Below are positions 51,367 through 52,589 of a stretch of DNA of 64,000 nt, in pieces (position 1 is the first letter of the stretch; each line of letters starts with the position of its first letter). The position numbers and the translations under genes were made by a program. Under the pieces are notes generated by a model. The model ran no database searches. It had not been told where the DNA came from and was given only the letters and a program-made list of their open reading frames with translations. The DNA is from Pseudochryseolinea flava (lineage in GTDB: Bacteria; Bacteroidota; Bacteroidia; Cytophagales; Cyclobacteriaceae): assembly GCF_003286915.1 (NCBI RefSeq), contig NZ_QMFY01000001.1, forward strand, positions 620,001 to 684,000, given 5' to 3'.

Positions 51367-52242
51367 CTATGCCTTCGGATGAGCTTGATCGAAGGCTTTT
51401 TTTAATTTTTCGATTGAATTATGTGTATAGACTTGAGTCGCCGATAGACTACTATGGCCTAGCAAATCTTTTACTGCATTTATCTCCGCACCTTTATCAA
51501 GCAAGTGTGTTGCGTAGGTGTGCCGTAATACATGCGGGCTCTTTCTTGAGGCACTGGTCGATTGCAAATTTTCTTTCACAATCCGATAAATCATCATCGG
51601 ATAACACGGGTCACCTTTTTCGGTGACCAATAGGCATCCATGGTCACCAACCTGTACATCTCGATTACGAATTTCTAAATATGATTCAATTTGTTTTCTC
51701 AGTGAGATGGTAAATGGAATAACACGCTCCTTATTACGTTTCCCTAAAACACGTATTGTCCGATTGTCCAAATCAACATTCTGTTCGCGCAGATTGATCA
51801 ATTCTGATAAGCGGATACCGGTGCCATAAAAAAGCTCGAGTACCAGCTTTTCAGTTGCTCCAGTAAAGTCGAAAACGTGAGGGCTGTCCAACACCTTTTG
51901 CATTTCGGACTCCATGGCAAATGATGGGAGTCGTCTCGGCACTTTAAGAACCCTCACCTTCAGCATTGGATCCTTAGAAATATGTCCCTGGCGCATAAGG
52001 AATTTGTAGTAAGCACGGAGACAAGCAATTTTGCGGTTAACCGAAGCGGCGTCGAGTTTGGCTTCAACGAGCGAAACGATCCAAGCGCGAATTATTCCAA
52101 AGTCAGCTTGGTCTATTGTGTAGTCGGGAAATGTTTGGATTATAAATCTTTCAAATTGGCGGAGATCGGTGGCATACGCCACAACCGTGTTAGCGCTGAG
52201 ACGCTTTTCAGATTGAAGGTATTTCAGAAAGAAATCAATCAT
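51367..52242 (-). CDS. xerC: Tyrosine recombinase XerC/XerD-like
   Basis: A 291-residue site-specific recombinase. The N-terminal SAM-like domain is MIDFFLKYLQSEKRLSANTVVAYATDL. The catalytic residues are Arg in YGTGIRLSELINL, His-x-x-Arg in HVLRHTYATHLLDKGAEI, a further His in LLGHSSLSATQVY and the nucleophile Tyr in QVYTH. Length and arrangement are those of the chromosome-dimer resolvase rather than a mobile integrase. I used the ATG at 52242; a GTG at 52254 is four codons earlier. A rpsU terminator and a DnaA-box cluster lie between it and rpsU. Confidence 0.92.
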   Translation of the reverse strand: MIDFFLKYLQSEKRLSANTVVAYATDLRQFERFIIQTFPDYTIDQADFGIIRAWIVSLVEAKLDAASVNRKIACLRAYYKFLMRQGHISKDPMLKVRVLKVPRRLPSFAMESEMQKVLDSPHVFDFTGATEKLVLELFYGTGIRLSELINLREQNVDLDNRTIRVLGKRNKERVIPFTISLRKQIESYLEIRNRDVQVGDHGCLLVTEKGDPCYPMMIYRIVKENLQSTSASRKSPHVLRHTYATHLLDKGAEINAVKDLLGHSSLSATQVYTHNSIEKLKKAFDQAHPKA

Positions 52243-52275
52243 GCTACAACTCACATCCGGTTCGATAGCACAATG

Positions 52276-52313
52276 TAAAAATAAAATCCCCTAACGGGAA
52301 ACCGCAAGGGGAT
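52276..52313 (-). terminator. Intrinsic terminator of rpsU
   Basis: Minus strand stem ATCCCCT/AGGGGAT (52313-52307 with 52292-52286), with an inner CGG/CCG pairing, followed by TTTATTTTTA. It separates rpsU from xerC. Confidence 0.75.
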
Positions 52314-52314
52314 A

Positions 52315-52362
52315 TGTGGATAAAATGACGAAATATTGTGGACAACCCCGTGGTTATCCACA
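52315..52362. other. Cluster of three DnaA-box sequences
   Basis: TGTGGATAA (52315-52323, perfect box on the minus strand), TGTGGACAA (52337-52345, one mismatch, minus strand) and TTATCCACA (52354-52362, perfect, plus strand). The spacers are 13 and 8 bases. The last two also form an 11-bp hairpin with one mismatch and a CCGT loop (52336-52363). The cluster lies in the rpsU 3' untranslated region, just ahead of its terminator. It may be an origin, a DnaA-titrating site or a regulatory site. Confidence 0.6.
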
Positions 52363-52376
52363 ATACGTATAGCTTA

Positions 52377-52390
52377 TTTCAGTACTGAAA
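52377..52390. repeat. Perfect 14-base palindrome after the rpsU stop
   Basis: TTTCAGTACTGAAA is self-complementary. It lies one base beyond the rpsU stop codon and 14 bases from the last DnaA box. Confidence 0.5.
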
Positions 52391-52391
52391 A

Positions 52392-52589
52392 TTAACCGTT
52401 GTTGTGAAGAAGCTGCTGTTGTTCACGGTAAGCAGCACGGATAATCTGGTTTCTGCGTCTTACTGATGGCTTCTCAAATGCCGTACGTGAGCGCAATTCC
52501 TTCAAAATACCAGTTTTTTCGAACTTCTTCTTAAAACGCTTAAGCGCCTTATCAATTGATTCGTTCTCTTTTACGTTAACGATGATCAT
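52392..52589 (-). CDS. rpsU: 30S ribosomal protein S21
   Basis: A 65-residue basic protein: [35 protein letters not shown]...[17 protein letters not shown], the full S21 pattern. In Bacteroidota S21 sits near the anti-Shine-Dalgarno end of 16S rRNA, in a phylum that largely dispenses with Shine-Dalgarno sites. A strong promoter precedes it. Confidence 0.97.

Follow-up and report, generated by a model that had tools for sequence, protein, structure and literature searches.

A three-slot array of DnaA-box-like sites between rpsU and xerC in Pseudochryseolinea flava and related genomes

Layout of the rpsU-xerC gap

The window analysed here is a stretch of 64,000 nucleotides of the Pseudochryseolinea flava genome (G000; 6.54 Mb in 48 contigs), i.e. 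C11:620001-684000. Positions at the site are given in window numbering. The site occupies the gap between two genes coded on the reverse strand, rpsU and a gene for a tyrosine recombinase of the XerC type (Table 1). The best NCBIfam model for the latter protein is TIGR02224 (XerC), with a score of 291 bits that is under the cut-off of 335 bits.

The two perfect DnaA boxes and the single-mismatch box that a first-pass annotation had described in this gap were all found where it placed them, and no other perfect box is present in the 64 kb. That annotation overlooked two features, the intrinsic terminator of rpsU and a degenerate site that makes three same-direction sites with a period of 11 bp. 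In the sense of rpsU, the order is the inverted box TTGTGGATAA, 8 bp, then TTGTCCACA-AT, ATTTCGTCA-TT and TTATCCACA-TA, followed by the terminator. The three slots are thus arranged head to tail in 11-bp steps with 2-bp gaps, a period that places them on one face of the helix.

Table 1. Features of the rpsU-xerC region and the probable replication origin (window numbering unless a contig is named)
Feature	Position	Strand	Evidence or remark
rpsU (ribosomal protein S21)	52392..52589	-	Pfam PF01165; TIGR00030
Inverted DnaA box TTATCCACA, 5' arm of hairpin in rpsU sense	52354..52362	+	Word search
Slot 3, one-mismatch box TTGTCCACA	52337..52345	-	Word search
Slot 2, degenerate site ATTTCGTCA	52326..52334	-	4/8 matches here; mean of 13 carriers 5.92/8
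Slot 1, perfect DnaA box TTATCCACA	52315..52323	-	Word search
RNA hairpin in rpsU 3' UTR, inverted box and slot 3	52334..52365	-	Folding, comparison of carriers
Intrinsic terminator of rpsU	52276..52313	-	Hairpin 52286-52313 and T run
TACATTG, possible -7 element of xerC promoter	52271..52277	-	TTTTACNTTG in 28/88 distinct rpsU-xerC gaps
xerC-type tyrosine recombinase	51367..52254	-	Pfam PF00589/PF02899; ATG at 52242 more likely start
Probable oriC gap, 257 bp	C11:754323-754579		Outside the window; flanked by TPR and Big_5-domain genes

The genome contains 55 perfect boxes in 6,542,746 bases (33 matches for the reversed word), or 0.54 per 64 kb, in agreement with the earlier estimate of about half a copy. 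Matches with at most one mismatch number 23 in the window, for 16.1 expected. The claim that such a close pair is not due to chance also holds, as the two perfect boxes of the site, 39 bp apart, form the only perfect pair closer than 500 bp among the 55. Similarly, the only such pair in the related genome G004 (60 boxes) is in its rpsU-xerC gap. G021 (83 boxes) has one perfect box at this site and a 405-bp pair elsewhere.

Downstream of the terminator hairpin, TACATTG and its counterpart TTTTACNTTG in other gaps resemble the -7 element of Bacteroidota, with the consensus TAnnTTTG. If TACATTG were a promoter element of xerC, which is a guess, 37 bp would separate it from the end of the array upstream. 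A sigma-70 scan of the site yielded no promoter, the sigma-70 model being uninformative for this phylum, and an Rfam search of the site gave no match. The 14-base palindrome that had been pointed out at 52377-52390 does exist. However, its 8-base core is absent from all 12 other genomes that carry the array, and the palindrome was dropped as a functional part.

The probable replication origin

The first-pass annotation had also proposed that the site might be oriC or part of it, with a GC-skew minimum as a check. The raw cumulative skew of the full 1,172,084-bp contig does reach its minimum at position 674351, only 2 kb from the site. In contrast, when the skew is taken from third codon positions with a correction for the strand of the genes, its minimum is at 754323, 82 kb away, on the side of mnmG, and the switch in strand composition is not placed at the site itself. 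As this case illustrates, the minimum of an uncorrected GC skew may single out a gap other than the right one.

The corrected minimum marks the edge of a gap in which several DnaA boxes accompany a run of AT; mnmG lies beyond the Big_5-TPR gene pair, at about 2.6 kb. We compared mnmG stretches of 8.5-11.6 kb from 23 Cytophagales genomes. The Big_5-TPR gap holds the top box cluster in 21 of them, including genomes without any box at rpsU-xerC, compared with 3/23 for the reversed box. Although it makes up 4% of the stretch, this gap contains 97 of the 174 boxes with at most one mismatch, vs 4 of 37 for the reversed control (summed by hand). Conservation of box position across relatives, as for an origin, was not found at rpsU-xerC.

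The parS-like word TGTTCCACGTGGAACA occurs with at most two mismatches at the start of mnmG in all 12 genomes searched. In G000, the parS-like sites are a weak pair, with two and three mismatches, at 759033-759114, about 4.5 kb past the oriC gap. The dnaA gene of G000 is on another contig, C9. The corrected skew minimum of G004, at 590919, is consistent with an origin in the gap on the mnmG side; its raw minimum is at 598422. Plasmids of Cytophaga hutchinsonii use an oriC.

Given the corrected skew minimum and the box clusters across genomes, the gap on the mnmG side, beside parS-like sites, is probably oriC. That the site in the rpsU-xerC gap is oriC appears very unlikely, with next to no chance of being correct, and the origin option of the first-pass annotation is not supported.

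In G002, the skew minimum is the end of the 400 kb fetched (C6:376001-776000). The skew is strongly negative up to about 636 kb, becomes positive for a short distance around the parS-like sites and is negative once more afterwards, including beyond 676 kb. A recent rearrangement near oriC, either an inversion or a translocation, is suggested by this pattern.

Conservation of the array and its occurrence at other genes

We gathered 110 loci, of which 16 without a usable rpsU-xerC gap were left out, and kept 88 distinct gaps. Some loci represent one genome under two names (e.g. L003/L031 and L002/L039; G062/G174). The alignment of this gap across relatives that had been suggested shows the boxes to be conserved in 13 related genomes among the 88 distinct gaps (G000-G006, G021 and G059-G063, hereafter carriers). 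At -33, -22 and -11 from the terminator, the carriers have on average 6.54, 5.92 and 6.77 matches of 8 to TTATNCACA, whereas other offsets have a mean of 2.20 and a maximum of 4.77. For this scoring, the anchors of G002, G003 and G063 were shifted by one base by hand because of an indel. When the three slots are scored together, 14 of the 88 gaps (the 13 carriers and L014) reach 18-21 of 24 and the other 74 remain at or below 16; none of 1720 shuffled gaps reaches 18. Perfect boxes are found in 11 of the 88 gaps, every one of them that of a carrier. The terminator of rpsU adjoins the array in all 13 carriers.

The strong slots vary between carriers. They are slots 1 and 3 in G000, G001 and G004-G006, mainly slot 3 in G002 and G003 (where slot 1 is weak), slots 2 and 1 in G021 and G060 (which have lost slot 3), and slots 3 and 2 in G059 and G061. 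In G062 and G063, all three slots are middling. It seems that binding sites turn over while the grid they occupy stays the same. By eye, the inverted box is perfect or has one mismatch in 8 of the 13 carriers (G000-G006 and G021), has two mismatches in G062 and G063, and is poor in G059-G061.

In a tree built from 85 XerC proteins, all 13 carriers belong to one 22-row group (support 90/87) that also includes nine non-carriers. The carrier label requires three changes on the best tree, at least two of which are forced by starred branches, compared with 12.3 for shuffled labels. The patchy distribution on this tree speaks against a single clade of carriers. It is compatible with a single gain of the array followed by two losses, and equally with more than one gain.

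Arrays are also present outside the carrier group. L014, from genome G023, has a three-slot array that scores 19 of 24, lacks a perfect box and is located before the rpsU terminator. It is possibly a weak older form. L055 and L062 have two weak slots at the corresponding place before the rpsU terminator.

A search of 22 chosen genomes for the three-slot pattern, with at most three mismatches, gave 27 places and a single one for the reversed pattern. Eight of them are at rpsU-xerC, 13 upstream of nrdB and 6 upstream of pcm. As these places share descent, they amount to three loci rather than 27 events. The nrdB array is found in 12 of the 13 carriers (in G000 at C11:248809-248839) and in the distant genome G040. 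Of 25 nrdB upstream regions that were scored, seven, from six carriers and G040, reach at least 19, and 18 score 16 or less; the latter include that of the carrier G061, which retains one box there. The pcm array lies directly upstream of the gene in six genomes of the genus (L246-L250 and L260), and none was found in G000 at up to three mismatches.

With at most two mismatches, the same search of 245 genomes of the family gave 31 places in 19 genomes, vs 2 for the reversed pattern. Of these, 13 are at nrdB, 5 at rpsU-xerC and 6 at pcm, and the other 7 are outside the carriers. The last seven comprise two places in the oriC gap, three upstream of an Mpl-like ligase gene, one near a DnaQ-like gene and one next to an unnamed frame, the Mpl-like and DnaQ-like names having been assigned by eye. 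That other genera have the array in their oriC gap is an argument for DnaA being the protein that binds it. The DnaA signature GGRDHSTVIHA is present in six of the seven dnaA loci examined, out of eight retrieved, all from genomes other than G000; the seventh has no qualifying frame. Taken together, conservation in 13 genomes and arrays at two other loci support the earlier reading of these words as DnaA boxes, with its options of titration and regulation.

The arrays upstream of the Mpl-like ligase gene (L291, L293 and L295, by eye) come from two genomes of other genera.

The inverted boxes had been predicted to form a hairpin, and one with 14-nt arms that are 93% complementary is indeed present. 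The site might act solely as RNA, through a stem-loop of the rpsU 3' UTR that protects or terminates the message, its likeness to DnaA boxes being incidental. The folding z score of -5.15 goes in this direction, for a 146-nt stretch that includes the terminator hairpin. In addition, the stem forms in all 13 carriers, so that selection at the RNA level may underlie some of the conservation. It persists in G059-G061 despite poor box words on its 5' arm, and a double change in G062 and G063 preserves pairing, as well as the inverted repeat. However, the 3' arm corresponds to slot 3 in most carriers and to slot 2 in others, which leaves the remaining slots unaccounted for. The three slots of L014 start 5 nt past the rpsU stop without a preceding inverted box, and 12 nrdB and 6 pcm arrays have no inverted box (at most one mismatch) within 60 nt. 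We consider an explanation by RNA alone unlikely. The hairpin is rather a partial contributor that may account for part of the conservation.

Candidate roles of the array

The array lies near oriC yet outside it, at a distance of 75-130 kb in 9/9 carriers that have both on one contig (they are split over contigs in the other 4/13). This is in keeping with pure titration, in which an oriC-proximal cluster would soak up DnaA after initiation and the neighbouring genes would be irrelevant. In Bacillus subtilis, six clusters of this type are present, and initiation comes early when they are lost (PMC13220808, extract); they likewise contain several boxes nearby but outside oriC (Okumura 2012, as cited in PMC13220808 and PMC4447404). 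Accumulation near the origin is also seen in Escherichia coli (PMC12371093, extract). In G000, 9 of the 55 perfect boxes are within 100 kb of oriC, for 1.7 expected (Poisson 6.6e-5, range chosen post hoc); without the site pair and the oriC box, six are left (Poisson 0.008, same post hoc range).

The effect is weak in G004, where a distance of 100 kb around oriC takes in four perfect boxes (Poisson 0.09) and one of 150 kb takes in seven (0.014). The array has only 3-4 candidate sites, compared with 4-11 in each of the strong non-oriC regions 3-8 of B. subtilis (PMC4447404, extract). In the three near relatives G066-G068, which are devoid of the array, a similar distance of 122-134 kb separates rpsU-xerC from oriC, and the place was therefore not chosen for the array. 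Furthermore, the array abuts a terminator in 13/13 carriers, and titration would not need the nrdB and pcm arrays to be upstream of genes. Titration by itself is the main rival reading and seems rather improbable to us, but regulation and titration can hold together. The distance between array and gene is not the same at xerC, nrdB and pcm, a variation that is as compatible with titration as with regulation.

The site could also reset the nucleotide state of DnaA, as a DARS-like (DnaA-reactivating) or datA-like (DnaA-inactivating) element. It resembles the DARS core in having three boxes, one of which is opposed to the two others (PMC5742627, extract). However, the cores of E. coli DARS1 and DARS2 read > < < with start steps of 14 and 12: box I faces box II, and box III has the orientation of box II. 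The site reads < > > with steps of 17 and 22, and its first pair diverges rather than faces. DARS was thus ruled out on polarity and spacing relative to the E. coli cores. With datA, which hydrolyses ATP on DnaA, the site shares an intergenic location and same-direction boxes, in a comparison by box direction alone; datA, though, needs an IHF site. The chances of either kind of element appear slim.

A closer likeness is with the DnaA double boxes of E. coli (nrdA, purH, polA and mioC), which are head to tail, 2 or 3 bp apart, and often combine a strong and a weak box. DnaA ChIP-seq showed a preference for pairs with this spacing and identified nrdA, an nrd gene, as a target (PMC11317965, extract). 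Head-to-tail sites with 2-3 bp gaps are found in the 13 carriers, the middle slot being weak (4/8) in the window. The site differs in having three slots and an inverted box and in being known from sequence alone, a basis on which it may be assigned to the double-box regulatory kind. xerC does not appear in the available portion of the E. coli target table (PMC11317965). DnaA activates or represses nrdAB depending on its bound nucleotide (PMC8203912, extract), and by analogy the xerC array is most likely a site of transcription control.

We favour the reading in which an array bound by DnaA, and distinct from oriC, most likely controls transcription of xerC and possibly also titrates DnaA, for which we would put the chances at about even. 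DnaA molecules would bind the three head-to-tail sites side by side and cooperatively, the inverted box being placed 8 bp before them. Bound DnaA would most likely alter transcription of xerC, either through contact with RNA polymerase or by acting as a barrier to read-through that comes from rpsU, and the effect would follow the level of DnaA or its nucleotide state. Since the array lies 75-130 kb from oriC, it would be copied early and could also hold DnaA after initiation. The analysis itself establishes the sequence, the geometry and conservation of the array, its presence at further loci and the probable place of oriC, and from these we infer DnaA binding, the xerC promoter and the direction of regulation. 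The weakness of slot 2 in the window, the slot losses in some carriers and the patchy tree count against regulation of xerC by DnaA.

The nrdB and pcm arrays would join xerC in a small DnaA regulon. Tentatively, the Chryseolinea group may have a compact regulon based on one fixed three-slot 11-bp array, which arose from the strengthening of weak older arrays, with losses in some lineages. It would link initiation to the resolution of chromosome dimers (xerC) and to dNTP supply (nrdB), with protein repair (pcm) as a third target. We lowered our already limited confidence in this proposal slightly because the carriers are not a single clade on the XerC tree.

To our knowledge, DnaA regulation has been little mapped outside E. 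coli, Bacillus and Caulobacter. Among the open-access papers listed, none dealt with a DnaA regulon or a non-oriC DnaA cluster in Bacteroidota, a result that argues only weakly for there being no such work. With the array comes a motif of fixed form that can be searched for, together with three genes as candidate targets. It would be unexpected for DnaA to be linked to xerC, if this is true.

Finally, a second conserved pair of DnaA boxes, 78 bp apart, was observed at C11:766211/766289, at G004:C5:518673/518751 and at G002:C6:642906/642984. It sits 12-72 kb from oriC and is flanked by a thioredoxin-like operon on one side and by a nitronate-monooxygenase-like gene on the other (both named by eye).
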